A stretch of DNA of 64,000 bases from assembly GCA_021229015.1 (NCBI GenBank), contig CM037778.1:82503842-82567841 (forward strand). The letters run 5' to 3'. A program made the translations under genes and the position numbers. The notes under the pieces were generated by a model. That model was given only the letters and a program-made list of their open reading frames with translations, had not been told where the DNA came from and did not search any database. The DNA comes from Solen grandis (taxonomy: Eukaryota > Mollusca > Bivalvia > Adapedonta > Solenidae). Every line of letters starts with the position of its first letter. The first letter of the stretch is position 1. Shown one piece after another: positions 16,536 to 31,605 of this stretch.

Positions 16536-16573
16536 AAAAAAAATTATACAGTTTTTATATTTTTGGATATTAT

Positions 16574-17536: not shown

Positions 17537-17553
17537 TTTTAATGATAAAAAAA

Positions 17554-17778
17554 ATGGAAGGAAAAATCTGTAAAAAATGTGGTGAATATAAAACATATAA
17601 TAATTATTACAAAGAATCTAAAGCCCCTGATGGGTTAAAAGCAAAATGTAAAAAATGTTTATACTTTGTTAAAAGAGATCATCGAGAAAGAAACAAAGAA
17701 AAATATAAACAATCTTATAAAGAGTTTATGGAAAGAAATCCAGATTATCAAAGTAATTATTATTTTAGAAATAAATAA
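17554..17778 (+). CDS. small zinc-ribbon protein
   Basis: About 74 aa with two CxxC pairs (CKKCGEYKTYNNYYKES, then AKCKKCLYF) followed by a basic, Lys/Arg/Tyr-rich tail. The pattern resembles the small zinc-ribbon domains found beside phage and viral HNH nucleases, but no catalytic motif is visible, so the role is unknown; nucleic-acid binding is plausible. The start at 17554 (MEGKICKKC) is chosen because GATAAAAAAAATGG fits the element-wide start context. 17542 is an alternative. It lies head-to-head with the integrase, and the two share the upstream region. The polymerase follows 25 bp downstream of the stop on the same strand. Confidence 0.7.
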   Translation: MEGKICKKCGEYKTYNNYYKESKAPDGLKAKCKKCLYFVKRDHRERNKEKYKQSYKEFMERNPDYQSNYYFRNK

Positions 17779-17802
17779 TAATTAAAAATGTATTCTATAA
17801 AA

Positions 17803-19017
17803 ATGGTCGAGAAAAAATCTAAATCATTTAAAGATATTATTAGTGAAAATATAATTAATGATATAGATGGAGAGAATATAACTAAATATATTAAGTTATT
17901 AAGAAAAAGAATAGTTATTAATCACTTTCCTTTGAAAATAAAAATAATAATAACAAGTGAATTTTCAACCCCTTTAGCATTTGATATAATAGAAAGTCAT
18001 TACTCTCACCCTGCTCAAGTTATTCAAACACAAAATAATATAAAAGAATTCTATAATAGTTTAATAGATAAATTTGAAGCTTGGGTAGATAAATTTCAAG
18101 AAAGAGGATCTGGTTTTGTTTTTAGAAATATTAAAAGTGTAGAAGTAAAACAATATAAATATGATTATCAGAAAGCTTCATCTTATATACCTCTTCAATT
18201 TAAATCAAATAATATTATTAATGTTAAAAATAAAAATGATAACAAATGTTTTCTCTGGGCAATACTATCAAAGTTATTCCCTGCAGATGATAACAAAGAA
18301 AGAGTGACAAAATATAAACCATATGAAAATAAACTTAATATGGATGGGATTGAATATCCAGTTAAAATAAAAGATATTCCAAAAGTAGAGAGACAAAATA
18401 ATATATCTATAAATGTTTTTGCATTAGAAGATCAATCTAATAAACAATCTTTATATCCAGTTTATGTTTCAAACTATGCTACGCAGCTGGACTCTGTCCA
18501 CAATGAAAGTGAAAATAGTGCAGAGCAGCCGTTCCGTGTAGTTGATCTCTTATACATTGAAAGTAATGAAAATACCCATTATTGTTTAATTAAAAATTTA
18601 GATAGTTTTAAGTATGACAAGAATAAACATAAATCATTTACATGTAGAAATTGTTTACAAGGATTTCAAAGAGAAATAACATTAATTAATCATAAAGAAA
18701 TATGTTATGATAATGAACATTGTAAATCTATAATGCCTGAACCAGGAAAAAATATTCTTAAATTTAAAAATTACCATTTCAAAAATAAATTACCATTTGT
18801 TATATATTCTGATTTTGAATCAAATAATATTCCATTATCTACTACTAAACCAAATCCTAATGAATCTTACACAAATAAAATATTTAAACAAGAAGTAAAT
18901 AGTTATGGAATATATGTTAAATCTGATTATCCAAATATATATAAATCACAATACTTTTCATATGTTGGAAATGATGCAATAGAAAAATATGTAGAAAAAG
19001 TAATAAAAAAAAAATGA
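17803..19017 (+). CDS. PolB N-terminal open segment (exonuclease I part)
   Basis: The longest intact piece of the polymerase, 404 codons from 17803. It contains the N-terminal domain, 'KCFLWAILSKLFP', the CxxC..H..C zinc finger and exonuclease motif I (SDFES). It terminates at a TGA just after ten consecutive A residues, where a one-base slip would keep reading into further polymerase-like sequence. A dispersed GC-rich palindromic module at about 18477-18545 is read in frame here as 'ATQLDSVHNESENSAEQPFR'. Confidence 0.75.
   Translation: MVEKKSKSFKDIISENIINDIDGENITKYIKLLRKRIVINHFPLKIKIIITSEFSTPLAFDIIESHYSHPAQVIQTQNNIKEFYNSLIDKFEAWVDKFQERGSGFVFRNIKSVEVKQYKYDYQKASSYIPLQFKSNNIINVKNKNDNKCFLWAILSKLFPADDNKERVTKYKPYENKLNMDGIEYPVKIKDIPKVERQNNISINVFALEDQSNKQSLYPVYVSNYATQLDSVHNESENSAEQPFRVVDLLYIESNENTHYCLIKNLDSFKYDKNKHKSFTCRNCLQGFQREITLINHKEICYDNEHCKSIMPEPGKNILKFKNYHFKNKLPFVIYSDFESNNIPLSTTKPNPNESYTNKIFKQEVNSYGIYVKSDYPNIYKSQYFSYVGNDAIEKYVEKVIKKK
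18477..18545. repeat. dispersed GC-rich palindromic module A (in PolB)
   Basis: GCTACGCAGCTGGACTCTGT, then later GTGCAGAGCAGCCGTTCCGT, inside the polymerase frame. The GGAC/GTCC centre matches the other modules. Confidence 0.8.
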
Positions 19018-19262
19018 ATTAAAAAACTGAATTGGTTTTGAAAAACAATTAATAATAGAAGAAATATTTTTATAAGGTTAATTTTTCCTTTTCTAATTGA
19101 AGAACTTAAAATATGAAGATAATTATAATAAAGTAAAACTTCTTTCAAAAATTAAAAATTATAAAAAATTAAGATTCTTAGATTCTTATAGATTTATGAG
19201 TAAAGGGTTATCAGATATAGCTAAATCAATAGATGAATTTCCTATTTTAGAAAAAGAGTTTA

Positions 19263-20009
19263 ATGGAGATATTTCAAAAAAAAATATATGAATATGTAGA
19301 TTCCATAGAAAAATTAAATGAAACACAATTACCAGATATTAAAGAATTTTATTCTACATTAACTCAAACAACAATTACGGGTAAAGAATATCAACATGCT
19401 CAAAAAGTTTTCTCTCATTATAAATGTAAATCTTTAAAAGATTATCATGAATTATATTTAAAAACAGATGTTTTAATCTTAGCTGATGCGTTTGAAAAAT
19501 TTAGAAGTTTTTTCTTAAAACACCACAATATAGATCCTTGTTATTGTTATTCTGCTCCAGGATTAACATGGCAATGTGGACTAAAATATACTGGAGTAGA
19601 GTTAGAATTATTAACTGATATAGATATGTTACAAATGTTTGAGAAAGGAATAAGAGGAGGATTTTCAGGAGTATTAGGCCCTAGACATGTAAAAGCTTTT
19701 AATAAACATACTCCTAACTATCATGGTAATGGAAATAGAATTATAGATGAATATGAAAAAAATAAAGCTTTAGAAATATTAAAGAATGGAGGAGATTTAA
19801 ATGAATTCTTTGAAGAAATTTTTTTATTATATTTAGATGCGAATAATCTTTATGGATGGGCAATGTCTCAACCTCTTCCAACCAAAGATTTTAAATGGGA
19901 AAAAGATCCTAATTATTATAAAGATATTATAAAATGTAATGCAAAGCAGCCGGACAAAGTCCGTAGAGGTTGTATAGTAGAATGTGATTTGAAGAATCAG
20001 ATTGGTTAA
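19263..20009 (+). CDS. PolB central open segment (exo III and palm motif A)
   Basis: An open frame of about 248 codons covering the exonuclease III-type motif, YSAPGLTW, GIRGGFSGVLGPRH and palm motif A (LYLDANNLYGW). It overlaps the preceding small fragment (19097-19291) in another frame at an A9 run. The GC-rich module at 19941-19968 is read in frame near its end as AKQPDKVRRG. After 'CDL' the frame breaks, and EESDWLKKYLNL appears in another frame, so a section between them is missing compared with the family. Confidence 0.75.
   Translation: MEIFQKKIYEYVDSIEKLNETQLPDIKEFYSTLTQTTITGKEYQHAQKVFSHYKCKSLKDYHELYLKTDVLILADAFEKFRSFFLKHHNIDPCYCYSAPGLTWQCGLKYTGVELELLTDIDMLQMFEKGIRGGFSGVLGPRHVKAFNKHTPNYHGNGNRIIDEYEKNKALEILKNGGDLNEFFEEIFLLYLDANNLYGWAMSQPLPTKDFKWEKDPNYYKDIIKCNAKQPDKVRRGCIVECDLKNQIG
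19941..19968. repeat. dispersed GC-rich palindromic module B (in PolB)
   Basis: GCAAAGCAGCCGGACAAAGT, then CCGTAGAG. Palindromic core CGGACAAAGTCCG. Confidence 0.85.
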
Positions 20010-20328
20010 AGAAATATTTAAATTTAAAAACAAGAATAAAATAATTCTTTCTATGGAAAACTTTAGAAAATATAAGAGGAAGAAATGAATTAATCTACTT
20101 ACCAATAGAGAAGAAGTAAGAAAATATATAAATAAACCTAATTTTAAAGATTCAGTTATATTCAATGATAATCTTGTTGCAATTGTAAATAATGTTACTT
20201 CAGTTACATTTAATAAACCTATTTATTTAGGACAAGCAATTTTAGATTATTCTAAATTATTAATGTATAACTTTTATTATGATGTTGTTAATGAACTATG
20301 GGAAAAGAATGAACTTGTTGCTTCAGAT

Positions 20329-21211
20329 TCAGTTTTAGGTGATACTCCAATAATACTAAGATATAAAAACAAAATATATATTGATAAGATAGAAGATATT
20401 ACAGATGAATATGAATATTCAAATGGTAAATTTTATTGTAAACTTATAAATTTAGAAGTTTGGACGAGTAAAGGATTTGTTAAATTAAAAACTGTAATTA
20501 AACATGAAACAGAAAAAGAAATTTTTAGAGTTGTTACACCAGTAGGATTTGTTGATGTAACAGAAGATCATTCTCTAATAAAAGATGATAATGAAATTAT
20601 TAAAAGAAATTTTTAGAGTATAAAAATAGTAAAATTAAGAATTTTTAAAATTAGAACCAACAACTTTAGAAGAGAAAAAAGCTTTTATTGAAGGATTCTT
20701 TTTAGCAGATGGATCTAGTGGAATTTATCCAAAAAACTATGGTTGGTGTTTATGTAATCAAGACTTAAAATTTTAAATAAATGTTTAAAAAAGTTTATAA
20801 ATTCCCAAAGGAAATTAAAAAGGAATTTTTGAAAAATTTTATACTGATAAAAAAGAAAAATATATTCCTTATAAAATTCTTAATAAAGACTATAATTATA
20901 GATTATTCTTCTTTAGAGGATTTTACCAAGGAGATGGATATAAGAAAGGAAAGAAATCAAATTTCTCTTTTTCACAAAAAAGTAAAATTACATTTTCATG
21001 TTTACATTATCTTATAACATCTCTAGGATATAATGCCAACATTAATACAAGAATAGATAAACCAAATATATTCCATTTATTCATAACAAAAAAAGAACAA
21101 ATTGCTACAGTAAAAAAGATAATACCGTTAGGAAAAGAAAAAAGAATAGTATATGATTTATCTACAGAAACTGGGGATTTTAATTGTGGATTTCCATTAA
21201 TCGTAAAAAAT
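20329..21211 (+). other. pol-c-type intein with LAGLIDADG endonuclease (frameshifted)
   Basis: A protein-splicing insert sits between the D and T of the polymerase DTD motif: the N-extein ends ..LVASD at 20328 and the C-extein resumes TDSIFLSI at 21212. Visible intein blocks: block A SVLGDTPIIL (Ser1), block B VTEDHSLI (TxxH), LAGLIDADG motif 1 FIEGFFLADGSS (about 20684), motif 2 FFRGFYQGDGYKKG (about 20912), block F KRIVYDLSTETGDF, block G GFPLIVKN followed by Thr+1. The length of 883 bp (3n+1) and stops at 20614-20616 and about 20776 show frameshifts, so it cannot splice as written. The penultimate residue is Lys, not the usual His. The endonuclease would promote homing into intein-free alleles. 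Confidence 0.85.
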
Positions 21212-21428
21212 ACTGATAGTATCTTCTTATCAATAACAACAAAAGATGTTTATAAAGATTTAGAAAAAATAAAAGATGAACATCTAGATACTTCGGACTA
21301 TCCTAAAGATCATCCACTTCATTCACAAAAAAATAAAAAAGTAATTGGAAAATTTAAAGATGAATTAAATGGAAAAATTATGAATGAAATAGTTTTCTTA
21401 AGAAGTAAAGCTTATTCTTTTACTTTAA

Positions 21429-21466
21429 GTGAAACACTACGGACTTTGTCCGGCTGCGTAGCACAA
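21429..21466. repeat. dispersed GC-rich palindromic module C (in PolB)
   Basis: Inverse orientation of module B: GTGAAACACTACGGACTTTG, then TCCGGCTGCGTAGCAC. CTACG/CGTAG and GGAC/GTCC arms can pair. Confidence 0.85.
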
Positions 21467-21593
21467 CAGGAAATAAAGAAATTAAAAGGAATAGGAACAA
21501 CAACAATAACTAAAAAAAAATTATGATATAAAATTTATTTAAAAAAAACCATTTGATGATAAAAGATATATATGTGAAAATGGAATAGATACT

Positions 21594-22043
21594 TTACCAT
21601 TTATATAGCTTCCATGCAACAAATCCAGTTAATGTCATTCCACCAATAATAAATATAATCTCTCTATTTTTTTGATCTTCAGAAGGAGTATAAAAATCAC
21701 TTAATGTAGGTTCTTTAGATAAAGGTTCTAATTGCGTAGCATTATCAATTTTATCACCACCAGTTGCATAATAATATTCTTTCATTGCTTCATCAACATC
21801 TTCAAAGGTTTTTACAGCATGTTGTTCCTTTTTCATTTGTTCATTAATAAAATCTAATCTTTGTGTTCTTTCTTTATTCCATTCATCACGTGCAGTTTGT
21901 AATTCTTCCATTGCTTTATCATGTCTTTTTTTCTCTTCATCAGCATCCTTTTTACCAATATGAGAAAATAAATAATTACTACCTGTAAAGGCTAATGCGT
22001 TTGTTAATGCTCCACCAACCATCATCGCTATTGCACTTGCCAT
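21594..22043 (-). CDS. Polinton-conserved 149-aa membrane/coiled-coil protein
   Basis: 149 aa. It begins with a hydrophobic, glycine-containing stretch (MASAIAMMVGGALTNALAF, then TGSNYLFS). A strongly charged helical segment follows (residues about 30-75, KKDADEEKKRHDKAMEEL..), and it ends with a transmembrane segment (IIFIIGGMTLTGFVAWKLY). This N-terminus recurs in proteins coded beside capsid genes in animal Polintons, but no function is established to my knowledge; a virion or membrane-associated role is inferred. The stop overlaps the convergent polymerase end by about 15 bp. Start context CATATAAAATGG. Confidence 0.8.
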   Translation of the reverse strand: MASAIAMMVGGALTNALAFTGSNYLFSHIGKKDADEEKKRHDKAMEELQTARDEWNKERTQRLDFINEQMKKEQHAVKTFEDVDEAMKEYYYATGGDKIDNATQLEPLSKEPTLSDFYTPSEDQKNREIIFIIGGMTLTGFVAWKLYKW

Positions 22044-22050
22044 TTTATAT

Positions 22051-22113
22051 GGAACAAGTTCCAGCTGTGAAACATTACGGATAAAATCTGCTACGGAACA
22101 TTATGGATTAAAC
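22051..22113. repeat. dispersed module D (spacer 149-aa / 75-aa genes)
   Basis: GGAACAAGTTCCAGCTGTGA, then AACATTACGGATAAAATCTG, then CTACGGAACATTATGG. It contains the perfect palindrome GGAACAAGTTCC-type core and lies 3' of the 75-aa gene. Confidence 0.8.
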
Positions 22114-22145
22114 ACTATTTACTTTTTTAAAAAAATAAACATAAA

Positions 22146-22373
22146 TTACTTCATAATATCAGCAGGAATAATACCTTGTTTAACCAACATATTTCTTGTA
22201 TAAGTAGCTAGAAGAATATCAATAGTTAACATTGAAACATCACTAAAATTTAAATCTACTTTAGGAGCAGGTTTTCTTAAAACCTTTTTAATTATTTCTG
22301 CATAACCAATTGTTAAAACAGAAACTACTCCTGCATGATAAGCTGTATTAACAATTTGTTTTTCATCCGCCAT
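22146..22373 (-). CDS. Polinton-conserved 75-aa protein
   Basis: 75 aa. An N-terminal amphipathic/hydrophobic segment (TAYHAGVVSVLTIGYAEII) is followed by a basic KKVLRKPAP linker, then SMLTIDILLATYTRNMLVKQ and GIIPADI. The combination resembles a small protein found in the capsid cluster of other Polintons; the function is unknown. The start is preceded by TTCTAAAAAATG. A GC-rich palindromic module lies 32-95 bp beyond its stop (22051-22113), in the spacer before the 149-aa gene. Confidence 0.75.
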   Translation of the reverse strand: MADEKQIVNTAYHAGVVSVLTIGYAEIIKKVLRKPAPKVDLNFSDVSMLTIDILLATYTRNMLVKQGIIPADIMK

Positions 22374-22389
22374 TTTTTAGAAAACAAAA

Positions 22390-22866
22390 TTAAAGATCAA
22401 ATGGATCAACTTTTTCTTGTGGTTCAACTTTTTCTTGTGGTTTAATTTCTTTCTTAGGTTGTATGTGTTTCACTTGTTTAGAATTATACATATATAATCC
22501 TAATCCAAAAACTCCAACTAAACATAAAGGTATATAATTTTTGTATATATTTACATGGATGAAATCTGGTTGCGGAACACTATGTTGAACTTCTTTAACT
22601 TCATTATTGTGTTTAACAGTGTTATACAGCCGTTCCGTAGCCGGACTTTGTCCATCCTCTTTTGTAATGCTACGCAGCCGGGTTTCATCCGTAATAGATT
22701 TTAATTGAATGTTTTCTTTCTTCATTTCTTCCATTTCTTTTCTTTTTAATTCAGCTTTCATTTTTTTTGCTTCTGCACCTTTCTTACCAGCAGATACTCG
22801 TTTTGGATTTTTTATTTTTATTTTAACTTCGGAACTAGCGTAGCCTTCATGGGTTTCTTCATTCAT
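22390..22866 (-). CDS. basic single-pass membrane protein
   Basis: About 158 aa from MNEETHEG. A Lys-rich charged helix (VSAGKKGAEAKKMKAELKRK, residues about 25-45) is followed by a segment derived from the dispersed GC-rich repeat (ITDETRLRS..DGQSPATERLYNTV, read from 22616-22693). Then come a transmembrane span (NYIPLCLVGVFGLGLYMY) and a Lys/Glu-rich tail with the tandem peptide PQEKVEPQEKV. The start at 22866 is chosen over an in-frame ATG at 22911 because CCAATAAAAATG fits the element-wide start context and reduces the overlap with the upstream gene to 8 nt. No enzyme motif is seen; it may be a virion or core protein. Confidence 0.75.
   Translation of the reverse strand: MNEETHEGYASSEVKIKIKNPKRVSAGKKGAEAKKMKAELKRKEMEEMKKENIQLKSITDETRLRSITKEDGQSPATERLYNTVKHNNEVKEVQHSVPQPDFIHVNIYKNYIPLCLVGVFGLGLYMYNSKQVKHIQPKKEIKPQEKVEPQEKVDPFDL
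22616..22693. repeat. dispersed module E (inside the 158-aa gene)
   Basis: ACAGTGTTATACAGCCGTTC, CGTAGCCGGACTTTGTCCAT, then GCTACGCAGCCGGGTTTCAT. Two units in tandem, read in frame. A smaller piece TGCGGAACACTATG is at 22571. Confidence 0.85.
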
Positions 22867-23233
22867 TTTTATTGGTGGTATTTTCACTTTTTTCAACTGG
22901 TGTATTTTCAACTAGTGTATTTTCAACTTGTGTAGTAAAATCAATATGACTAGCAGTTGTTATCATAGTAGTAAAAGGAGCAAGATACATTCCATATCTA
23001 TAATACAATTCACAACAAGTGTTATTTAAAGCATGATTGATAAATGGATCTTCTTCTAAATCTTGTATTAGTTTTGGTGGATTAACAACATTAAAATATT
23101 TTGATACACCCATAACATATAAATTAATAAAAGAATTACCTATTGTCTTAGTCATACTTCCTCCTAATCTAGCTTCATATCTACAGTATAATTTGTTTAT
23201 TTGTTCTGGTGTCATTGTATCAATGTCTGACAT
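22859..23233 (-). CDS. Polinton-conserved protein, start uncertain
   Basis: 124 aa as drawn, with TPEQINKLYCRYEARLGGSM, then TKTIGNSFINLY and EDPFINHALNNTCCELYYRY, then GMYLAP. This set recurs in the capsid cluster of other Polintons; the function is unknown. The frame stays open upstream to about 23330 without an ATG, adding RERLSAIVAGGGSKQYLGKD, which looks like genuine protein. The ATG at 23233 lacks the TAAAAATG context shared by its neighbours. A perfect hairpin module, GCTACG-GACTT-CGTAGC (about 23318-23334), lies exactly where the real start would be, suggesting the original start was displaced or destroyed. C-terminal repeats: TQVENTLVENTPVEKSENT. Confidence 0.75.
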   Translation of the reverse strand: MSDIDTMTPEQINKLYCRYEARLGGSMTKTIGNSFINLYVMGVSKYFNVVNPPKLIQDLEEDPFINHALNNTCCELYYRYGMYLAPFTTMITTASHIDFTTQVENTLVENTPVEKSENTTNKNE

Positions 23234-23314
23234 TTGTAAGTCTTTACCAAGATATTGTTTACTTCCTCCACCAGCAACAATAGCTGATAATCTTTCACGT
23301 TTTGTTTCATCTAT

Positions 23315-23334
23315 AGTGCTACGGACTTCGTAGC
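23315..23334. repeat. dispersed module F (perfect hairpin)
   Basis: AGTGCTACGGACTTCGTAGC: 6-bp stem GCTACG/CGTAGC with loop GACTT, at the expected start of the 124-aa gene. Confidence 0.85.
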
Positions 23335-23419
23335 TTTATTTGACTCGGAGATTGAAATTTAGTTTTTTTTTTGTTTGATAGAGGATTGTTAGCATTTTTT
23401 AAGCATTATTATGTATAAC

Positions 23420-23498
23420 TTAAGGTATATATAAGCATTACTTTAGCATTACTTTAGCATTACTTTAGTATTACTATGTATACCTTAAGGTAAATATA
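23420..23498 (-). promoter_or_regulatory. candidate promoter repeats upstream of 124-aa gene
   Basis: TTAAGGTATATATA (23420-23433) and TTAAGGTAAATATA (23485-23498) flank tandem copies of AGCATTACTTT. On the minus strand this reads TATATATACCTTAA, a TATA-like box ahead of the minus-strand cluster. It is closely similar to the boxes upstream of the ATPase. Confidence 0.45.
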
Positions 23499-23505
23499 AG
23501 CATTA

Positions 23506-24174
23506 CTAATTAACCCAATAATTTGTAGGTTGATCAGTTTTTAAAATTAATTTACTATGTTTCTTTTTTTTCAATTCTTCTTTAATTCTTACTCTTTCTT
23601 CTAATGTAGGGATAACATCATTCTCTCTTAAACAGTTTTCAAAACTATCCCTATCTTTAGTATAAAATATACACAACCATTTTGTCTGTTCTCTAAGATC
23701 TTTTAAAACTGAATTATATCTTTGTGAAATAACCCATACACTTTGTTCAGCATGTCTACCTGAAAAAGCTAATTCTGATAACATATCCTTTTTCTTTGTT
23801 AACTCTTTTGTAGCACTACAATCATCTATAATATATAGAGTAGGATATCCTGCATATTTATTAAAAAATATTCTTAGTAGTTCTTGTAGTTTTTCTTCTC
23901 CTTTAATAATAGGATTATAAATTAATAAATTCTTTGTTTTTGGATTTCTAATATCATCAATCCATTCTCTATTTTTATATGCTTTATTAAATTCAATAGT
24001 TGGACAAAGAATAATAATATATTCAAACACACCTCTATAATCTCTTTCTAAAAGATCTAAAACAAATTCTGTTTTTCCACATCCTGTTTGTCCACAGATA
24101 ATTGCACAGCGTGGATATTTAGGTAGTGTTATACAGTGTTTCACAGCGGTTCCCAAGCCGTTTCGTAGTTCCAT
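23506..24174 (-). CDS. ATP: A32/FtsK-HerA-like genome packaging ATPase
   Basis: 222 aa. It powers packaging of viral DNA into capsids. Walker A is GQTGCGKT (residues 28-35), Walker B LYIIDD (113-118), and a polar sensor-like WVISQRY follows near 148. Length and motif order match Polinton/adintovirus ATPases. Residues 1-16 (MELRNGLGTAVKHCIT) are encoded by one of the dispersed GC-rich modules (24125-24172), so the extreme N-terminus is repeat-derived. Start context AAATTAAAAAATGG. Two TTAAGGCATATATA boxes (TATATATGCCTTAA on the coding strand) lie 48-94 bp upstream. The frame is intact. Confidence 0.93.
   Translation of the reverse strand: MELRNGLGTAVKHCITLPKYPRCAIICGQTGCGKTEFVLDLLERDYRGVFEYIIILCPTIEFNKAYKNREWIDDIRNPKTKNLLIYNPIIKGEEKLQELLRIFFNKYAGYPTLYIIDDCSATKELTKKKDMLSELAFSGRHAEQSVWVISQRYNSVLKDLREQTKWLCIFYTKDRDSFENCLRENDVIPTLEERVRIKEELKKKKHSKLILKTDQPTNYWVN
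24125..24172. repeat. dispersed module G (ATPase N-terminus)
   Basis: AGTGTTATACAGTGTTTCAC, AGCGGTTCCCAAGCCGTTTC, GTAGTTCC. It supplies the first codons of the ATPase. Confidence 0.8.
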
Positions 24175-24182
24175 TTTTTAAT

Positions 24183-24307
24183 TTATTATTTAGTAATACT
24201 TAGTAATTATTTAGTAATTATTTAAGGCATATATAGTAATTATTTAGTAATTATTTAAGGCATATATAATAATTATTTAGTAATACTTAGTAATTATTTA
24301 GTAATTT
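24183..24307 (-). promoter_or_regulatory. tandem AT repeats with candidate TATA boxes upstream of ATPase
   Basis: Tandem AGTAATTATTT units carry two identical TTAAGGCATATATA boxes (24222-24235 and 24255-24268; TATATATGCCTTAA on the coding strand), 33 bp apart, 48-94 bp before the ATPase start. The shared box with 23420 suggests a promoter element. Function is inferred from position and sequence. Confidence 0.5.
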
Positions 24308-24314
24308 ATATACT

Positions 24315-24338
24315 TCACTATGGAACAGCTGTGAAACA
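24315..24338. repeat. dispersed module H (abuts MCP stop)
   Basis: CACTATGGAACAGCTGTGAA, then ACAC, immediately 3' of the capsid gene stop at 24339. Confidence 0.75.
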
Positions 24339-25607
24339 CTAATACATAATTTCTTTAAATCTTCCATCTTCAAAATTAATTTGTGCATCTTGTATAACAA
24401 ATAGATAAACATTTATTGGCTCATCCGATCCTGCGTCTTTTGTTATTTGTATAGTTATACCTTCTGATGCATTTTCAATTCTTCTCCCTGAACCATGTAG
24501 AGAGTTATCATCTGTTGAACGTAAATCTAACCATAATGCATAACTGTTTGTTAGATATTTTTCTAATGTTACATTGGTGAAATTTAATTTTTTTATCATC
24601 TTACTAATTTCTTTATCATCTTTTGAATTAAAAGCAAAGAATTTTTTTATCTCATCCCACTGTTGATAAGCTCTCATTCCTTGACTGTATAGTTGATTTG
24701 GAACTCCTTCTATTGTTATTTCTACTTTTGTTATTTTAGGATTAAAATAATGTTCTGTTGATGCTCTATCCGGATCTTCAAATAACATTAGAATACCTTT
24801 CATACTTCTAGCCGGAACATTTAGATTAATATTCCAAAGTGTATCAGATTTATTTTTTGTTATTTTCCTATGTCTAAGTATTCTATCATATAAAATAACC
24901 ATCTTACCACTAAATCTATTTCTAATTATTCTAGCTAATTCAACATCAGAAACACTTTCAAATTCTAAACAAATATTCTTAATAACATAAGAAGCATTAT
25001 TATCACTAGATTTAACTACATTATTATAATCATTAAATGTAAGTTCATATTCAAGTCTATCTCCTAGACCCGCTTGATAAAAAGGCATATGTGATTCTAA
25101 TAATTCAAAATCTAGAGGAATACAAAATCTATTTCCATAAGCTTTTACAATAGCTTCATCTTGTGTATCTGAGGAAGCATTACCAGCTCCAACTCTATGT
25201 CTTAACATGTTTATTTTACCAATTCCTTGGTATGCCATATTTTCACGTTCTGTAGGAGACTTCCATAAATCAATATAACAATGATATATATCACTATCAT
25301 CAATTGACATTACTTCATTTCCAGATATTTTTATTGTTGTTTTCTTAATTATTGATCTTCCTATGTTTGGATATATTGTTGCATTTGCATCACTATCACT
25401 TTTGATTTCAATTTCAAATGCTAATCTTGTTGTTCCAGGAACAATAACATCATTACCACTTAGATTAGGAAATCTTACTAACAATTGTTGATTTTGATCA
25501 ATAGTTGAAGGATTATTGCTTATTACAACACTTTGACGAATACCTCTAATTCCTCTAGGTTCTCTTATTCTTCTGTATGGGTTTAGTTTTTCTCCGTAAG
25601 CTGCCAT
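24339..25607 (-). CDS. MCP: major capsid protein (double jelly-roll, hexon-like)
   Basis: 422 aa. It forms the predicted icosahedral shell. Family-diagnostic stretches: NQQLLVRFPNLSGNDVIVPG, then TTRLAFEIEI; KKTTIKISGNEVMSIDDSDI, then YHCYIDLWKS; LESHMPFYQAG; 'QWDEIKKFFAF'; and the C-terminal INVYLFVIQDAQINF. These match the Polinton protein recognised as a double-jelly-roll capsid protein. The frame is fully intact, in contrast to the polymerase. Start context CCTCTAAAAAATG. A GC-rich palindromic module abuts the stop codon (24315-24338). The 428-aa gene is divergent, with a module-containing 79-bp spacer. Confidence 0.95.
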   Translation of the reverse strand: MAAYGEKLNPYRRIREPRGIRGIRQSVVISNNPSTIDQNQQLLVRFPNLSGNDVIVPGTTRLAFEIEIKSDSDANATIYPNIGRSIIKKTTIKISGNEVMSIDDSDIYHCYIDLWKSPTERENMAYQGIGKINMLRHRVGAGNASSDTQDEAIVKAYGNRFCIPLDFELLESHMPFYQAGLGDRLEYELTFNDYNNVVKSSDNNASYVIKNICLEFESVSDVELARIIRNRFSGKMVILYDRILRHRKITKNKSDTLWNINLNVPARSMKGILMLFEDPDRASTEHYFNPKITKVEITIEGVPNQLYSQGMRAYQQWDEIKKFFAFNSKDDKEISKMIKKLNFTNVTLEKYLTNSYALWLDLRSTDDNSLHGSGRRIENASEGITIQITKDAGSDEPINVYLFVIQDAQINFEDGRFKEIMY

Positions 25608-25635
25608 TTTTTAGAGGAAATTTTTAATGTTTAAT

Positions 25636-25680
25636 GTTTCACAGTGTTATACAGCCGTTCCGTAGCCGGATAAAATCCGT
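25636..25680. repeat. dispersed module I (MCP / 428-aa spacer)
   Basis: GTTTCACAGTGTTATACAGC, CGTTCCGTAGCCGGATAAAA, TCCGT. It shares 27 nt or more with module E. Confidence 0.85.
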
Positions 25681-25686
25681 ATTAAA

Positions 25687-26973
25687 ATGGCAGAAGGAGG
25701 ATATGATTTTGAAAATCCTGTGTTTGATGAAGATGATTATGATGATGATGAAGATGTTGATGATGATGAAGATGATGAAACTCCTTTTATAAATAATGAT
25801 AGACAAAGTCAAATTACTCATATTGAGGATAATACAAGAACACAATTAATAATAAAACAGAGAAAAGATATGGTTGATAAATATTTTAAATATTTAGAAG
25901 AAAAATATGAAGTAAAATCAGAATATATCGATATTACAAACTTTGAAGTTATAGATAATAAACTATATTTAAAAGTTTCAGGTAAAGAACCTATTAAACT
26001 TACTAAAGGTAATAGTTTTATATCTTTGAACACTTTAGAGGGTAAAATTGGAAGAGGTGCAATTAGAAACTTGTTGAATATACGTTATGAACCATTATCA
26101 AAACAAGCCAAAGAAAAATTACAAAATGCAGAAAGAAACATTCCAAATGTTGATAATATAGAAATGATTGATTTACCTAGAGCAGCTGAAACTGCAGCAA
26201 ATGCTGCTGAAACTGTAATGGAAACATCTTTTTCTGAAGAAGCCGAAACTAGAGTGAAAGAAATAGTTGGAATTGAACAAGGAACACAAACATTTACAAC
26301 TAAAAGAGATATTGATGGGGTCCTTAAAGCAATGACTACTGTAAAAGAAGCGCTTGCAAATAACTTGGCTGAACTTTCTGAAACAAACAAAAAAATAGCA
26401 TATGAAAAAAATAAATTAGAAAGAGCTAAGGAAGATAATGATGAATTCCAAATAGAAAGAATTACTGAAAGAATAATAGATTTGGAGATAGAGAGAAGTG
26501 GAAGAATAGAAGTAATTGAAACCTTTAGAGATAAATTAAGAACTCAAATAAATAGAATAAAAGAGACAATACATAAAGTATTAAATGAAGATACAACATT
26601 AGCAGAAAGAATAAAAACTTTATTTAGAGAACAAGGGATTACAATTGTTAGTATTTTAACTGCTTTTGGAATGATTATTGGTGTTATTGTTGAGACTTTT
26701 ATTCCTGGTGGTGGTGGAACTGTAACACCTAAACCTCCTGGGAAAGGAGGAAATGTAAGAGATTGGATAAAAAAACAATTATCAAATATTGCTAAACTAT
26801 TAGCAAAACTTGCAGGAAAAGCGGTAGAAGCATTACCAGGAATTATTGGAGCTATTGTAGGATGGTTATTAAAAACAACAGGAAACGTTGTTGCATGGTT
26901 TGGTAGTAATTTATGGGCTTTATTAATTTTAGTTGTGGGAATGATTTATACAGCTGTGAACAAAGTTCGTTAG
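25687..26973 (+). CDS. Polinton-conserved 428-aa coiled-coil and membrane protein
   Basis: 428 aa. The acidic N-terminus (DEDDYDDDEDVDDDEDDE, residues 14-31) is followed by a globular part. A long coiled coil follows (about residues 215-310, 'ELSETNKKIAYEKNKLERAK..'), then the signature TLAERIKTLFREQGITIVSI, then LTAFGM. Gly-rich and hydrophobic segments follow (IIGVIVETFIPGGGG; ALPGIIGAIVGWLL; LWALLILVVGMIY). This signature is frequent in Polinton copies of invertebrates; the function is unknown. Its last residues (TAVNKVR) and stop are formed by a GC-rich module. Start context GTATTAAAATGG. The frame is intact. It could be a membrane-active virion protein. Confidence 0.88.
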   Translation: MAEGGYDFENPVFDEDDYDDDEDVDDDEDDETPFINNDRQSQITHIEDNTRTQLIIKQRKDMVDKYFKYLEEKYEVKSEYIDITNFEVIDNKLYLKVSGKEPIKLTKGNSFISLNTLEGKIGRGAIRNLLNIRYEPLSKQAKEKLQNAERNIPNVDNIEMIDLPRAAETAANAAETVMETSFSEEAETRVKEIVGIEQGTQTFTTKRDIDGVLKAMTTVKEALANNLAELSETNKKIAYEKNKLERAKEDNDEFQIERITERIIDLEIERSGRIEVIETFRDKLRTQINRIKETIHKVLNEDTTLAERIKTLFREQGITIVSILTAFGMIIGVIVETFIPGGGGTVTPKPPGKGGNVRDWIKKQLSNIAKLLAKLAGKAVEALPGIIGAIVGWLLKTTGNVVAWFGSNLWALLILVVGMIYTAVNKVR

Positions 26974-27024
26974 TGTTTTACAGCCGGGCTATGGACTTTG
27001 TCCAGCTGCGGAGCACTTTACCCG
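26950..27024. repeat. dispersed module J (428-aa / 455-aa convergent spacer)
   Basis: ACAGCTGTGAACAAAGTTCG, TTAGTGTTTTACAGCCGGGC, TATGGACTTTGTCCAGCTGC, GGAGCACTTTACCCG. It provides the 428-aa stop codon and reaches the 455-aa stop. Confidence 0.85.
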
Positions 27025-28392
27025 TTAGAGAACATACTCGTAAATAAATAAAGCTAAAAGTCCTGCTGTAATACTTCCTATTATAATAGATATTTTATCA
27101 TCTTCATGTTCATCCGTTGTTTCAATGAGATCACTAGGTTTTATTGGTTCACTAGGTTTTATTGGTTTACTTATTTCTGGTAAAGATTTTTTTGTTGGTG
27201 TACCACTTATATCTGTGGGTTGTGTAGTAGTAGGTTCAACATGAGAAACATTTACATCATTATTTATTCCAAGTGTTTGAATTTTTTCTTCTTCTGCTAT
27301 TACAATTTCATTATTATAATCTTGTATTGTTCCAATTCTTAATTCCATATCACTAGGAGACATATATAACCCAATACCATAAACATAATCAACTTTACTT
27401 CTTGCATATTTTAATACACTTTCATAATTTTTTATTTGAGTAGGTATATCAATTGGACTGTTTATAACATCTTCAATGTTAGCTAAAAATTGTTTTTGAG
27501 CATCAAATGCCATTCCTGTTCCTAAAATATCTGTTTTAGTTTGAGATTGTGCTCCAAGAATAGCCCAACAATATGTTCTTATAGACTCATTAATTCTTTC
27601 AACACCAGCTTGTGTAAAACCTTTTGACTCATCAAGAATAAAAGTTGTCCACATGTTTTTAAATTCATCTGGTTGTTTGATATAATCAATAGAAATGTTT
27701 TTTGTATAAGACTTACCTTTAACAGGACCTCCAGGTCCAAAAATAAATCTATATAATCTAAAAACAGATAAATCAAAAACATAAAGAAAATTATCCTTAA
27801 AATAAGTTTTTTTCCAAACATTTGAATCTTTTGTATATATATATCCAAGACCACCACCATCTTCTTTATGTCTCCAATCTGTATTAGGATCTACATTAAA
27901 CTCACTACAAATTCTTTCATAAGCTTCTTTGTTATAAATATTTTTAAAAGCATTCCAACTTTCATCTTGTTTAAGAGGAATAGATATTTCTTTTAATATT
28001 CTTCTTGTTTGATAGTAAATATGGAATAAGAATAAAGAACCTGTTAATCCTCCTACCTCTATATGATTTTTTATATCAACTCCACAACCTGTAGTTGAAC
28101 ACCAAATAGCAAAGTTTAATTGATTTTGCCAAAAAAAATTCCAATCACTTTCCCACCTTTCTACTATTTCTTCTGATGTAACTTTAGGTAATAAATATTT
28201 TTCAAATATATTAGGGAAATCTGCATTAAAACTTTTGTGAAGAGCAGTGCCCTGCAGCCGTTCCGTAGCCGTTCCGTTTCCATCTGATGAAATTATTATT
28301 TCTTGTTTTATAATGTTAAGTGTTTTTTTTTTAAACACTCCTCCATGTAAATAATTAACATCCTCATTATATTTAAAAGCTTCAGGGATCAT
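27025..28392 (-). CDS. Polinton-conserved 455-aa protein (PW-like)
   Basis: 455 aa. Conserved blocks: NFAIWCSTTGCGV, LFLFHIYYQTRRILKEI, ESWNAFKN..AYERICSEFNV, and GVERINESIRTYCWAILGAQ, then SQTKTDILG. Near-identical blocks occur in a large structural-type protein of many Polintons (called PW in early annotations; that name is from memory and uncertain). The C-terminus has a Pro/Thr/Lys-rich stalk with SKPIKPSEPIKPSD repeats and a terminal transmembrane segment (IIIGSITAGLLALFIYEYVL). Residues about 39-50 (NGTATERLQGTA) come from a GC-rich module (28244-28276). Start context CGATAAAAAATG. It is convergent with the 428-aa gene; their 51-bp spacer is entirely module sequence. Confidence 0.88.
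   Translation of the reverse strand: MIPEAFKYNEDVNYLHGGVFKKKTLNIIKQEIIISSDGNGTATERLQGTALHKSFNADFPNIFEKYLLPKVTSEEIVERWESDWNFFWQNQLNFAIWCSTTGCGVDIKNHIEVGGLTGSLFLFHIYYQTRRILKEISIPLKQDESWNAFKNIYNKEAYERICSEFNVDPNTDWRHKEDGGGLGYIYTKDSNVWKKTYFKDNFLYVFDLSVFRLYRFIFGPGGPVKGKSYTKNISIDYIKQPDEFKNMWTTFILDESKGFTQAGVERINESIRTYCWAILGAQSQTKTDILGTGMAFDAQKQFLANIEDVINSPIDIPTQIKNYESVLKYARSKVDYVYGIGLYMSPSDMELRIGTIQDYNNEIVIAEEEKIQTLGINNDVNVSHVEPTTTQPTDISGTPTKKSLPEISKPIKPSEPIKPSDLIETTDEHEDDKISIIIGSITAGLLALFIYEYVL
28244..28276. repeat. dispersed module K (in 455-aa gene)
   Basis: GCAGTGCCCTGCAGCCGTTC, then CGTAGCCGTTCCG, in frame. Confidence 0.8.
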
Positions 28393-28688
28393 TTTTTATC
28401 GGTAAAAAATGTACCATATAATTTCCAATATTGATAAACCTATAAACTTACAACAATATATAGATAATAAACATGGAGATAAGAAAATTAGATTAAAATT
28501 TTAATTATACTATAGGAAAAAAATTAAAAAAAAGTAGGTAATTTAGAATCAGTAATAGAATCATTTAAAAATCATATAGAATTGCATGAAGAAAATTTAA
28601 AACTAACAGAGGATGAGGAAATGAGAAAGAGAATAAGAGAGGAAAAAAAATTAAATTGAAAGAGATTTTTTAGAATATAATAAAGAAA

Positions 28689-28715
28689 AGTAAAAAAAAA
28701 AAAAAAAAAAAAAAA
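28689..28715. repeat. poly-A run
   Basis: About 26 consecutive A residues within the broken penton duplicate. Confidence 0.9.
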
Positions 28716-28846
28716 GAATAAAAAAAGAGAAATATTGAAGAGTAGAAAGAGATATAAAAATAGAAATATTAGAAGAGATAGAAAGAGATAGAAAAATAAC
28801 GGAAGAGTTAAAAAGAGAAAGAGAAAGAGAAAAAGAAAGAGAAATA

Positions 28847-29116
28847 ATGGAAGAGTTAGAAAGAGAAAGAAAAATAATGGAAGAGTTTGAAAGAGAAATA
28901 GAAAGAGAAAGAGAAATATTAGAAGAGTTAGAAAGAGAAAGAAAAATAATGGAAGAGTTTGAAAGAGAAATAGAAAGAGAAAGAATAGAAAGAGAAAGAG
29001 AAAGAATAGAAAGAGAAAGAGAAAGAGAAAGAATAGAAAGAGAAAGAAAGAAAGAAAAGAGAAAGCTAATATTATTAGTAATTATAAACAATTATATATT
29101 CACCTTGAACAAATAA
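28847..29116 (+). other. Glu/Arg repeat frame from (GAAAGA)n expansion
   Basis: An 89-codon frame is composed of a nested repeat: unit MEELERERKIMEEFEREIER (28847-28906) recurs in near-identical form (ILEELERERKIMEEFEREIE at 28916-28975), then degenerates to ERIERERER. It would form a charged single alpha helix. It ends in sequence derived from the duplicated penton read in another frame. Because the DNA is a purine-only microsatellite, the frame may be incidental. Confidence 0.4.
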
Positions 29117-29343
29117 ATAGTACTTATAATTTTCATAATGGAGCACCTAGTAAAATCTTAGGAGTTATTCCTGTTGAGAGTAATCAATTTGGAGATATTG
29201 TTAATATTATTTTTGATAATTCAGAGTATAAAAAATTAACTATAGGAAATATTTCTGAATTAACTATAAGTGTTTGTGATGAATGGGGGAAAAAAATAAA
29301 TAATCATGGATTACCAATGAGTTGTGTTTTAGAAATCATATAG

Positions 29344-29367
29344 GGAACTGCTGGAACTTTGTTCCAC
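29344..29367. repeat. dispersed module L (after broken penton stop)
   Basis: GGAACTGCTGGAACTTTGTT, then CCAC. Arms GGAAC/GTTCC; it directly follows the TAG at 29341. Confidence 0.75.
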
Positions 29368-29401
29368 TAAATTATATAAAATTTATTTTTTATCAATAAA
29401 A

Positions 29402-30115
29402 ATGAATCATATAATTTCTAATATTAATGAACCTATAAACCTACAACAATATATAGATAATAAACATGGAGATAAGAAAATTGGATTGAGAGGTTTTACT
29501 TATACTATGGGTTGGTATAATTTAATTGGACAATGGATTGATACTAACATTCATAAATCCCCACCACCCAAAAAAATAATTTCAGATGGTTTTTATAATT
29601 TTCAACAAATAGTTGATGTATTTAAAAATTTTGACAACAGAATAACATTAACTGTTGATGAAAAAAATGGTATTGCTTGTTTAAAAGCAGAAGAATATCC
29701 AACAATAAGTTCAGTTAGTGATATAACCTATGGATTAATAATAACCAAAGAATTAAGAAAAATGTTAGGATTTAAAGAGAGTCATTATTTGAAAAATTCA
29801 CCTCTTCTTAACCTCCCATGCCATGGTGAACAATCAATAGATTTATCTCCTTATAAACAATTATATATTCACCTTGAACAAATAAATAGTGCTTACAATT
29901 TCTTTAATGGAGCACCTAGTAATATCTTAGGGGTTGTTCCAGTTGAAAATAAACCATTTGGAGATATTGTTAATACAAACTTTAGTAATCCAGAGTATAA
30001 AAAATTAATTATAGGAAATATTTCAGAATTAAATATAAGTGTTCGTGATGAAAAAGGACAAAAAATAGATAATCATGGATTACCAATGAATTGTGTTTTA
30101 GAAATTATTCCTTAG
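29402..30115 (+). CDS. mCP: minor capsid protein (penton, single jelly-roll)
   Basis: 237 aa. Predicted vertex protein. Family-typical segments: IISDGFYNFQQIVDVF, YGLIITKELRKMLGF, SNILGVVPVENKPFGDIV, LIIGNISELNISVRDEKGQK, then IDNHGLPMNCVLEI. The C-terminal 'L.I.V.DE.G..IDNHGLP' is characteristic of Polinton pentons. The frame is intact. Start context ATCAATAAAAATG. A broken duplicate lies just upstream. A cluster of GC-rich modules begins at the stop codon and fills the 89-bp gap to the next gene. Confidence 0.9.
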   Translation: MNHIISNINEPINLQQYIDNKHGDKKIGLRGFTYTMGWYNLIGQWIDTNIHKSPPPKKIISDGFYNFQQIVDVFKNFDNRITLTVDEKNGIACLKAEEYPTISSVSDITYGLIITKELRKMLGFKESHYLKNSPLLNLPCHGEQSIDLSPYKQLYIHLEQINSAYNFFNGAPSNILGVVPVENKPFGDIVNTNFSNPEYKKLIIGNISELNISVRDEKGQKIDNHGLPMNCVLEIIP

Positions 30116-30184
30116 TGTTTTACAGCTGGACAAAGTCCATAATGTTTTACAGTGTTTTACAGTGTTATACAGCCGTTCCGTAGC
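30114..30184. repeat. dispersed module M (after penton stop)
   Basis: AGTGTTTTACAGCTGGACAA, AGTCCATAATGTTTTACAGT, GTTTTACAGTGTTATACAGC, CGTTCCGTAGC. The clearest tandem array of the unit, starting at the stop codon. Confidence 0.88.
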
Positions 30185-30204
30185 TTAAATTTTATTCTAT
30201 AAAA

Positions 30205-30474
30205 ATGAGTATATTTGGTTATAAAAAGTATATACTAGATGATAGTAAGATAGATTCATATTTTAATAATTTAAAGTCAAATTTAGAAAGTAAATTATTT
30301 AATAATTTAAAGTCAAATTTAGATAGAGAATTACTTAACACTTTAACAAAATTAGACCTTGTGGTAAAAAGAATAGAGGAATCCTTAAAAAACATTACAA
30401 TAAGTGCTGAAATAAAAGGTTCTTTATATAAAAGTAAGGTGTTTTCATTTGGAAACCGGTTGGTTATGTTGTGA
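30205..30474 (+). CDS. right-end protein, N-terminal part
   Basis: 89 aa. It opens MSIFGYKKYILDDSKIDSYF, with an internal duplicated peptide (NNLKSNLESKLF / NNLKSNLDRELL, residues 17-40) and a C-terminal SKVFSFGNRLVM. The start context TTCTATAAAAATG is identical to that of the polymerase. The frame ends at TGA 30472-30474, immediately followed in another frame by RRGYITGIGLSS, which looks like the rest of the same protein, so a small indel probably broke it. Function unknown. Confidence 0.6.
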   Translation: MSIFGYKKYILDDSKIDSYFNNLKSNLESKLFNNLKSNLDRELLNTLTKLDLVVKRIEESLKNITISAEIKGSLYKSKVFSFGNRLVML

Positions 30475-30713
30475 TAAGGCGTGGTTATATTACTGGTATT
30501 GGTCTGTCGAGTAAAAGGACAAGTGGTGAAGTGCGAGTTGGTGTGTTGGTTGATGGAGAGCGTTTAAGTGGGTGTGATATTACTTTACAAACAACAACAG
30601 CAAAACATGATAATTTTGAACGCCCTTTTTTAATACTGTTGCCTCGTTATTGTTTGAATTCAAATAATATACTTAAAAATGAAGCAACCAACGGCCCCAA
30701 ATTTATACCCTGA
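30475..30713 (+). pseudogene. right-end protein, C-terminal part, frameshifted
   Basis: Continuation of the preceding gene in a different frame: IRRGYITGIGLSSKRTSGEV, then RVGVLVDGERLSGCDITLQT. It is a beta-rich pattern, possibly a small virion protein; unidentified. No start with the local TAAAAATG context exists here, supporting a broken gene. The stretch 30410-30640 is visibly richer in G and C (GGCGTGG, GTGCGAGTTGG, GAGCGTTTAAGTGGG) than all neighbouring coding DNA, hinting at a different origin by recombination or capture. Confidence 0.5.
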
Positions 30714-31116
30714 TTTAAATAGTAAAATACTAGATTCACAGCCAGACTATGGAACAGCTGCGGAGCACTTTATCCATAGTGCAGAGCAGTCGGAAGTAGA
30801 ACTTCATGAACCAAGTCAAAATTATAGATTACAAAAAATCTCAGAGATTGAGAAAACATTAATTAATGAGAGAGATACTCGTAAAGCATTATATAAAAAA
30901 TATAAAAGAGGAATAAATATAACAGATGGAGTAGACACAGCTTTTATGTCTGCTAGTATAATTATAGGAACTATTGGTTTAATTGTTCCTATTCTATTTC
31001 CGTTAGAAATTGTAGCTCTTGTATGTGGAGGAGTTGGAGCCTCTGTAAAAATTGTTAGACGTAAATTTATGAAAAAATTAAAAAAAATTAAAAAAAAAAG
31101 ATGGAGAGATATCTGA
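30679..31116 (+). CDS. Polinton-associated membrane protein, C-terminus frameshifted
   Basis: 145 aa as drawn. A short N-terminus includes a GC-rich module read in frame (SQPDYGTAAEHFIHSAEQSE, from 30737-30799). It is followed by SEIEKTLINERDTRKALYKK, then a two-helix hydrophobic hairpin (MSASIIIGTIGLIVPILFPL, then EIVALVCGGVGASV), then a basic RRKFMKKLKK. The pattern 'IE..L..E...R..LYKKYKR' plus the hydrophobic pair recurs in Polinton-borne proteins. After an A-rich run near 31092-31102 the expected continuation (GEISEQEFKLILDELEKYNE) is in another frame, and after a small module (31181-31200) a further piece (NYSEEERQKLIEQGRKEAME) ends at 31287, so the original protein was longer. Start context CTTAAAAATG. 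Confidence 0.75.
   Translation: MKQPTAPNLYPDLNSKILDSQPDYGTAAEHFIHSAEQSEVELHEPSQNYRLQKISEIEKTLINERDTRKALYKKYKRGINITDGVDTAFMSASIIIGTIGLIVPILFPLEIVALVCGGVGASVKIVRRKFMKKLKKIKKKRWRDI
30737..30799. repeat. dispersed module N (in right-end membrane protein)
   Basis: CACAGCCAGACTATGGAACA, GCTGCGGAGCACTTTATCCA, TAGTGCAGAGCAGTCGGAAG. It shares TAGTGCAGAGCAG with module A and GCTGCGGAGCACTTTA with J. Confidence 0.82.
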
Positions 31117-31311
31117 ACAAGAATTTAAACTTATATTAGATGAATTAGAAAAATATAATGAGCTTAAACAATTAAAAAAAACTCTGCGGTTCCAAAAAAC
31201 TATTCAGAAGAAGAAAGGCAAAAATTAATAGAACAGGGGAGAAAAGAGGCAATGGAGATAATATCCAAAAATATAAAAACTGTATAATATTAAATTTTTA
31301 TAATACGTTAG

Positions 31312-31599
31312 AAAACCCTCCTCCATATTCAGAGTGGTAAAAAATGGTTTAAGAAAAAACATAATTTTCTTTATTTTTTTCATTGTTGTTTTTTTTTAAA
31401 TTTTACATTAGTGTGATTTTTTTGATTTTACATTAGTGTGATTTTTTTGATTTTTTTAACTAATAGTAGTATAGGTATTGAGCGTGTATGCTTTTTGGGG
31501 GTTTTACACATGATAAGCCAGACGCGCGGATTAGCGCGTCTGGGTTTTGAAGTGTGTTAGACCCGCAGTGAGCCATGGACGCTCAATACCTATACTACT
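31312..31599 (-). repeat. Polinton right terminal inverted repeat (288 bp)
   Basis: Perfect inverse of 16248-16535, carrying the mirror-image terminal palindrome (31465-31599). Imperfect similarity to the left side extends inward to about 31256. Confidence 0.96.
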
Positions 31600-31605
31600 A
31601 TCGAG
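31600..31605. repeat. Polinton target-site duplication, right copy
   Basis: ATCGAG, identical to 16242-16247. Confidence 0.93.

Follow-up and report, generated by a model that had tools for sequence, protein, structure and literature searches.

What are the short GC-rich palindromes scattered over an AT-rich Polinton of the bivalve Solen grandis, and how did they come to lie there? The question arises from a preliminary description of a 64,000-bp stretch of the genome (contig CM037778.1, positions 82,503,842 to 82,567,841; G000:C2:82503842-82567841; hereafter the window), in which a recurrent module built on a 19-nt palindromic core was listed at 15 positions. The element carrying the modules spans 16248-31599 (15,352 bp, with 26.5% GC in its interior) and belongs to the Polintons by its terminal inverted repeats (TIRs; arms at about 16248-16561 and 31286-31599, complementary at 97%), its 6-bp target site duplication (TSD; ATCGAG at 16242-16247 and 31600-31605) and the matches above Pfam cut-offs to an rve integrase and an A32-type packaging ATPase (Pox_A32) found in a scan of 10 open reading frames (ORFs). 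Comparison of copies of this element indicates that the modules are probably a family of selfish mobile double-hairpin micro-elements living in one Polinton family: whole units have been inserted with sharp borders and in two orientations, and on the contig checked they are confined to Polintons.

The form of the unit was derived from comparing Polinton copies. A 25-nt unit, R-TGYnnnRCA-GC-YGGAYnnnRTCCR, is a double mini-palindrome with 3-nt variable spacers, and a 19-nt unit, R-TGYnnnRCA-GC-YGTTCCR, has YG-TTC-CR as its second half; the first letter R is A or G, rarely T, and the units are usually bordered by TA, which gives insertion steps of 27 nt and 21 nt. The module is thus not the 19-nt palindrome first proposed, being a two-palindrome unit, mostly TA-bordered, that is inserted whole. 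A strict scan requiring perfect stems found 13 complete units in the Polinton, 9 on the plus and 4 on the minus strand, against a mean of 0.075 and a maximum of 1 in 40 dinucleotide shuffles of the element, in agreement with the earlier statement that the module occurs in both orientations. The same scan found no unit in the window flanks (16,248 + 32,396 bases, 48.6 kb) or in the left 2.2 kb of the Polinton, integrase gene included, as had also been claimed. Among the 15 listed positions, 11 (18477, 19941, 21429, 22616, 24125, 24315, 25636, 26950, 28244, 30114 and 30737) hold at least one complete strict unit, whereas 22051, 23315, 29344 and 31181 are degenerate or half units, 29344 retaining the second hairpin only. 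The 19-nt core as first written is enriched (allowing up to 3 mismatches, it occurs 5 times, 4 times exactly, versus 0.04 expected) but too narrow, because the stems vary. Additional degenerate copies were seen by eye near 21735, 22573, 22669 and 22839.

As in hairpin-forming mobile elements, units are present and absent at one and the same site among close relatives. When the gene region 22390-22911 was aligned from 34 loci and the window (one locus, L009, being the window's own copy), several sites occurred both with and without units; at 22669..22695, one allele was filled in 4 sequences and empty in 19. Five module sites were compared in 10 or 20 copies each, with gain, loss or replacement of a unit at four, the site at 25645 being largely common to its 20 fetched copies. 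The flanks of filled and empty pairs reach 100% identity over up to 240 bp, e.g. L018 and L016 in polB. When the 3-kb loci and pieces of the window were compared in all pairs, 2,243 pairwise indels were called; filtering for unit-like content and a GC of at least 0.38 reduced these to 114 site/length classes. Their commonest lengths are 27 nt (24 classes), 21 nt (20), 48 nt (9) and 54 nt (6), the last two being sums of 21 and 27. The loci were picked for unit words or a unit-bearing stretch, so that rates from this sample are biased upward.

The borders of these insertions were read from 17 empty/filled pairs chosen by eye as clean, 16 from 75 printed indel classes and one from the module-site comparison, the classes omitted being repeats of the same site, degenerate, or beside older units. 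Eleven pairs are bordered by TA/TA and two by AA/AA (one of these in polB, L017 versus L026), and four combine a left AA, AT, GA or CA with a right TA; TA makes up 11% of the dinucleotides in the element. In some TA/TA and AA/AA pairs a base in or near the border differs between the filled and the empty copy. A duplication of 4-5 bp (GTAAT, GTTAG) had been considered and was replaced by the TA, sometimes TTA, border after more events were compared. The 60-bp array at 26958-27017, missing in nine listed copies, was excluded from the 17 events; the idea that its flank had served as a stem template was dropped, and a partial deletion is the better reading of its empty form ATACAGCTGTTACCCGTTAGAG, since in many other copies shown TTACCC forms the 3' arm of a hairpin. 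Furthermore, in 126 distinct strict-unit contexts, which come from fetched loci sharing descent, the left and right di- or trinucleotides match in 76 (mean 45.9, maximum 59 in 5,000 shufflings). Where the left border is TA (58 contexts), the right one is TA in 46, TTA in 8 and neither in 4; among the 68 contexts with another left border, the two sides agree in 22 (8.6 on average and at most 19 after shuffling), and the right one is TA in 38. The matching borders other than TA/TA include CA/CA, AA/AA, TT/TT and also TTA/TTA. The lopsidedness fits a unit with its own 3' TA and a TA-preferring target, or a 2-nt heteroduplex resolved either way.

Two other routes of spread bear on these borders. 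In single-strand transposition like that of IS200/IS605 or of REP (repetitive extragenic palindromic) repeats and their RAYT (REP-associated tyrosine) transposases, the unit would be inserted 3' of a short target, bring its own right-end TA and duplicate no target. The hairpin-spacer-hairpin layout and the lopsided right-end TA agree with this route, as does GTAG at many array junctions, the tag of one REP super-family (PMC3733652). We nevertheless consider it unlikely, since Y1_Tnp (PF01797), the cognate transposase domain, has no match in the genome, against matches in 5 of 14 control genomes, and since the matching non-TA borders are better fitted by duplication. Alternatively, the units could have spread by polymerase template switching or slippage at hairpins together with gene conversion, TA serving as a 2-nt microhomology and no dedicated transposition being involved. 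Tandem and nested arrays, the 21/27-nt ladders, the TA borders, the covarying stems described below and a loop flip at one site (GGAC-AAA-GTCC in L037, GGAC-TTT-GTCC in the other rows shown) would all follow from it, yet unit-free sites receive exact unit borders and unit-like insert lengths concentrate at 21, 27 and their sums, whereas with a simple 2-nt microhomology inserts should vary freely in length and content. This explanation is possible but, in our view, less probable than mobile units.

Compensatory changes, for which the preliminary description had proposed a check, are present in the stems. In the 100 loose matches listed out of 1,002 in the genome (see below), the three free pairs are complementary in 97, 93 and 87, with C-G and T-A both common (Fisher tests, 8e-25, 2e-19 and 2e-13); the 46 distinct sequences among them keep complementarity in 43, 43 and 39. 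Of 23 stem mismatches, 21 are C/A and 2 T/G. For the second palindrome, 55 distinct sequences were collected through an anchor lying before it, with its 5' arm filtered by purine/pyrimidine pattern; 21 of them have a perfect stem, against 6.2 (maximum 13) with the 3' arms shuffled, and nine stem types (CGGAC, TGGAC, CGGAT, CGGGC, CGAAC, CGAAT, CGGGT, TGAAC and TGGAT) and six loops occur. Such covariation can have three sources: selection for the hairpin, a site in the duplex recognized symmetrically by a protein, or correction templated by the hairpin; under template switching, it would reflect one arm being corrected from the other by hairpin-templated copying. Folded as DNA, three 25-nt units have weak predicted structures (-4.2 to -5.3 kcal/mol), and the one 19-nt unit folded has none.

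Indel lengths are multiples of three in 62 of the 82 classes that fall in coding stretches and in 20 of the 32 spacer classes, gene limits being approximate. In the gene at 27025-28392, 14 extra residues, NGTATERLQGTALH (42 nt), are present in the window protein and absent from 19 of 20 chosen homologues, the remaining one, P0138, carrying a different insert at this position. In the gene at 30679-31116, the segment from YPDL to QNYRLQ has 33 residues in the window (by eye), versus 5 in 114 of the best 120 of 358 homologues, 3, 17 and 23 in one each, and 3 unparsed. Peptides encoded by units, taken from our own peptide list, were found in none of these best 120, in none of the best 120 of 3,627 capsid homologues, and in two (P0167 and P0226, probably by chance) of the best 120 of 674 homologues of the gene at 27025-28392; the source species of these proteins are mostly not given. 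Unit density per covered kb, drawn from the upward-biased locus sample, differs between regions. Several spacers and the genes at 22390, 27025 and 30679 are rich in units, two spacers hold none, and the capsid gene (2 units in 10.6 kb), the ATPase gene (12 in 20.7 kb) and the gene at 25687-26973 (0 in 6.9 kb) are poor in them. P0138 and P0232, homologues from other sources, also have unusual N-terminal peptides (SSGSEAL and SERSER repeats), possibly encoded by palindromic inserts of another kind.

The units might also be functional Polinton hairpins under selection, i.e. terminators, packaging or regulatory signals. The covarying stems speak for this, as does the placement of several units at the ends of genes or in intergenic spacers (26958-27017, 30116-30180 and 25645-25680, the last common to most of 20 copies). 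Against this, near-identical copies differ at the same site, units are nested and lie in frame in genes in both orientations, and the homologues of the gene at 30679-31116 lack unit-coded peptides among the best 120, so that we regard a functional role as very improbable. The giant-virus-type 3'-end hairpin role that had been suggested is likewise not supported, in view of the in-frame genic location, both orientations, nesting and presence or absence between copies.

Subsequently to be placed beside these data is the distribution of units in the whole genome. The loose 24-nt form TGYNNNRCAGCYGGAYNNNRTCCR of the 25-nt unit, which leaves pairing free at its three Y/R pairs, has 1,002 matches, versus 0 for its reversed control. 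The listing is complete for contig C1 (110.7 Mb, 8% of the assembly), where 87 matches form 25 clusters, grouped at gaps below 16 kb and without each match inside a cluster being sequenced; all 25 overlap a copy of this Polinton family or have one at most 8 kb away. For 21 clusters a Polinton place from other searches lies within 8 kb, and for the remaining 4 the fetched 1.1-kb pieces match the element, as does a piece from one cluster on contig C2. Conversely, all 18 A32-ATPase loci listed on C1 (from 150 scored among 429 candidates) are inside or about 2 kb from unit clusters by hand comparison; units and Polintons thus coincide on this one contig, 8% of the assembly. The word CAGCCGTTCCGTAGC occurs 169 times, versus 8 for the reversed word, and its first 30 places fetched are all in this Polinton family, 4 being in the window's own copy and several others paired within one copy. 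The core pattern GGACAAAGTCCRTA matches 168 times and its reversed control 32 times; 7 of 8 places fetched are in Polintons and the eighth, L007, is plain host DNA, the pattern alone being too short for a 1.3-Gb genome. The Polintons of other hosts were compared through proteins only. In a collection of viral contigs, CAGCCGTTCCGTAGC was found in 31 stretches with a single match each, none resembling the element, which are taken as chance (30 of 31 have at least 50% GC); RCAGCYGGAYNNNRTCCRTAGTG had 1 match there and a similar pattern 3 in a collection of genome contigs, the full unit being in none, and searches of the viral contigs with the capsid protein and alignment A1 gave no confirmed relative.

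This distribution bears on whether an ordinary host satellite or miniature inverted-repeat transposable element (MITE) struck the Polinton by chance. TA borders are typical of some MITEs, yet none of the 25 C1 clusters lies off Polintons, the 48.6 kb of flank hold no strict unit, and the two unit ends (RTGY... and ...RTCCR) are not mutually complementary, i.e. there are no TIRs. This candidate was therefore rejected, being the least credible of all, and the confinement to the Polinton that had been claimed holds for the 30 fetched CAGCCGTTCCGTAGC places and the 25 clusters.

Several findings weigh against units that move as selfish elements. In four of the 17 events picked by hand the left dinucleotide does not match the right one, the lopsided mismatches may mean that TA is carried by the unit and not duplicated, and the borders of the 48-nt class common at 22610 do not match when set against its few empty copies, which may themselves be deletions. 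Moreover, 20 of the 82 coding-stretch classes are not multiples of three, the copies share descent, so that contexts and classes are not independent events, and units can be moved, too, by gene conversion among copies of the Polinton. For the one 19-nt unit folded as single-stranded DNA no structure is predicted (0 kcal/mol), so that covariation is what speaks for its hairpin step. No enzyme for movement was identified, Y1_Tnp being absent from the 10 Pfam-scanned ORFs as from the genome, and classical cut-and-paste is unlikely, because the unit ends are not inverted repeats of each other.

If units are mobile, as we think probable, a donor unit would form its hairpins while the Polinton DNA is single-stranded and, through them, be copied to a new site, usually a TA and more rarely a different dinucleotide, in its own or a second Polinton genome. 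The replication mode attributed to Polintons, protein-primed strand displacement, exposes single strands in which the hairpins could form. Movement would take place during this virus-like replication, when long single strands exist and host DNA is no substrate; we infer this stage from the finding that, although the host is full of TA sites, no C1 cluster lies away from Polintons, and it would explain the confinement. The leading candidates for the activity would be the Polinton polymerase, by template switching, or a structure-specific nuclease, and unit lengths in multiples of three would allow survival within genes. In its furthest form, offered tentatively, the proposal is that this 19/25-nt DNA, which would rank about smallest among the transposing units described, depends as a parasite on a virus-like transposon throughout; hairpins and TA would direct a single-strand step that carries it from one replicating Polinton genome to another and nowhere else, and its multiple-of-three length would be an adaptation to survival inside viral genes. 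If true, the units would be among the smallest mobile DNAs known, parasites of a virus-like parasite. Mobile hairpin elements are known in organelles and amoeba giant viruses, and the way in which units so small move is a question of long standing; in the present case, about a thousand matches in one element family of one genome, with filled and empty sites together, make borders, targets and intermediates directly readable. Should movement occur only in Polinton replication, units would mark extrachromosomal virus-like replication of these animal Polintons in the host lineage. They also show one route for viral proteins to gain in-frame segments.

Rickettsia palindromic elements (RPEs) are short palindromes, some in genes, and are longer than the units here. 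The likeness to such bacterial elements drawn in the preliminary description is apt as an analogy only: REP repeats and RPEs belong to bacterial chromosomes, and here no Y1 transposase matches, although REP repeats share with the units that they are short palindromes, some in genes (PMC3733652). On our best reading the units resemble the yeast mitochondrial GC clusters; the units, too, are short GC-rich hairpin repeats scattered in an AT-rich genome (13 strict units). The clusters have flanking AG or ACT repeats, and merge and shuffle (PMC4478555). They differ (GC42 etc.; PMC2800124) in that GC42 has 42 nt and is mitochondrial, whereas the units have 19/25 nt, mostly TA borders and other sequence and sit in a nuclear virus-like element, with copies on large chromosome-size contigs. 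The hairpin elements of sponge and Allomyces mitochondria include double hairpins and, like the units, show recurrent invasion and are scattered and sometimes genic (PMC2800124); the Allomyces elements are reported in that source without flanking duplications, and both groups are likened here by description. In Pithovirus, the palindromic repeats M1/M2 are massively amplified, with TA as putative TSD and as the dinucleotide common to adjoining repeats (PMC10664404), which resembles the units in that palindromes are amplified in virus-like DNA with TA at their borders. However, M1/M2 have TIRs of 54 and 47 bp and a 37-bp inner part and are intergenic in an amoeba giant virus, whereas the unit body has 19 or 25 nt, has no TIR and is also genic; their authors held transposition less likely after one insertion without TSD (PMC10664404). 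A literature search, covering titles and abstract openings with most subscription journals outside it, gave no account of such units in Polintons.

Units and related features in the window (positions within the window; a dot marks no strand given)
Feature	Position	Strand	Basis and remarks
25-nt class unit in polB, TGCTACGCAGCTGGACTCTGTCCA	18477..18500	+	strict scan; different units here in other copies
19-nt class unit in polB, TGCAGAGCAGCCGTTCCG	18519..18536	+	strict scan
25-nt class unit in polB, TGCAAAGCAGCCGGACAAAGTCCG	19940..19963	+	strict scan
25-nt class unit in polB	21440..21463	-	strict scan; 27-nt step present in L018, absent in L016
Degenerate/nested units, spacer	22047..22106	.	by eye; nearby insertions of 28, 49, 54 and 81 nt in copies
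Composite: 25-nt class unit with 19-nt unit (22620-22637) nested past its first palindrome	22610..22653	+	in frame, minus-strand gene
27-nt insertion (unit + TA), in frame in gene 22390-22911	22669..22695	+	empty site CTCTTTTGTAATAGAT in many copies
Unit remnant	23315..23332	.	by eye; failed strict scan
19-nt class unit, 5' end of ATPase gene, stem variant GG-TTC-CC	24137..24154	+	strict scan
19-nt class unit adjoining capsid gene	24321..24338	-	strict scan
19-nt unit (25645-25662), then half unit CGGAT-AAA-ATCCG; spacer between divergent genes	25645..25680	+	strict scan
Array with 25-nt class unit (26992-27015, -) between two convergent genes	26958..27017	-	strict scan, copy comparison
Strict 19-nt unit (28248-28265), apparently nested in degenerate second unit; capsid-like gene	28231..28289	+	14 added codons
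Lone second hairpin TGGAAC-TTT-GTTCCA	29352..29366	.	sequence reading
25-nt class unit (30116-30139) and 19-nt class unit (30163-30180), past stop codon	30116..30180	+	strict scan
In-frame unit array in gene 30679-31116; strict unit 30750-30767 (-)	30733..30800	.	about 28 codons longer than most listed homologues

As to the genes of the Polinton itself, PolB was named by eye from reading frames and motifs, the ORFs at 17788-19017 and 19263-20009 having no Pfam match, and the Capsid_N match lies under its Pfam cut-off. A protein of the clam Mactra antiquata matches the capsid gene best (83%), and one homologue of the gene at 27025-28392 is named from Mytilus edulis (45%). A capsid protein, P0009, also 83% identical, is assigned to a metagenome-assembled genome of Candidatus Thiodiazotropha, which is probably bivalve host DNA within a symbiont bin. 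The polB gene is interrupted at 20311-21208, just ahead of its NTDS motif, by an intein-like (Hint) reading frame that is missing from several Polinton copies (e.g. L020, L032 and L063; junction at about 20328|21210). A gene piece is duplicated at 29082-29339 and 29851-30108 (88% identical), an upstream pair at 28405-28494 and 29398-29487 matching too, and AT-rich tandem repeats in two spacers (23389-23507 and 24173-24306) vary in length among copies. The stretches 15500-16241 and 31606-33000 are, by eye, an apparent decayed retrotransposon of the non-LTR (non-long terminal repeat) type split by the Polinton insertion (TSD ATCGAG). The A32-type ATPase, with 150 scored matches among 429 candidates in the genome, indicates a large Polinton load. 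Furthermore, the outer part of about 135 bp of each TIR (16248-16382 and 31463-31599) is an inverted repeat itself, with arms of 26-28 nt spaced by 83 nt, through which each Polinton end could fold as a hairpin.

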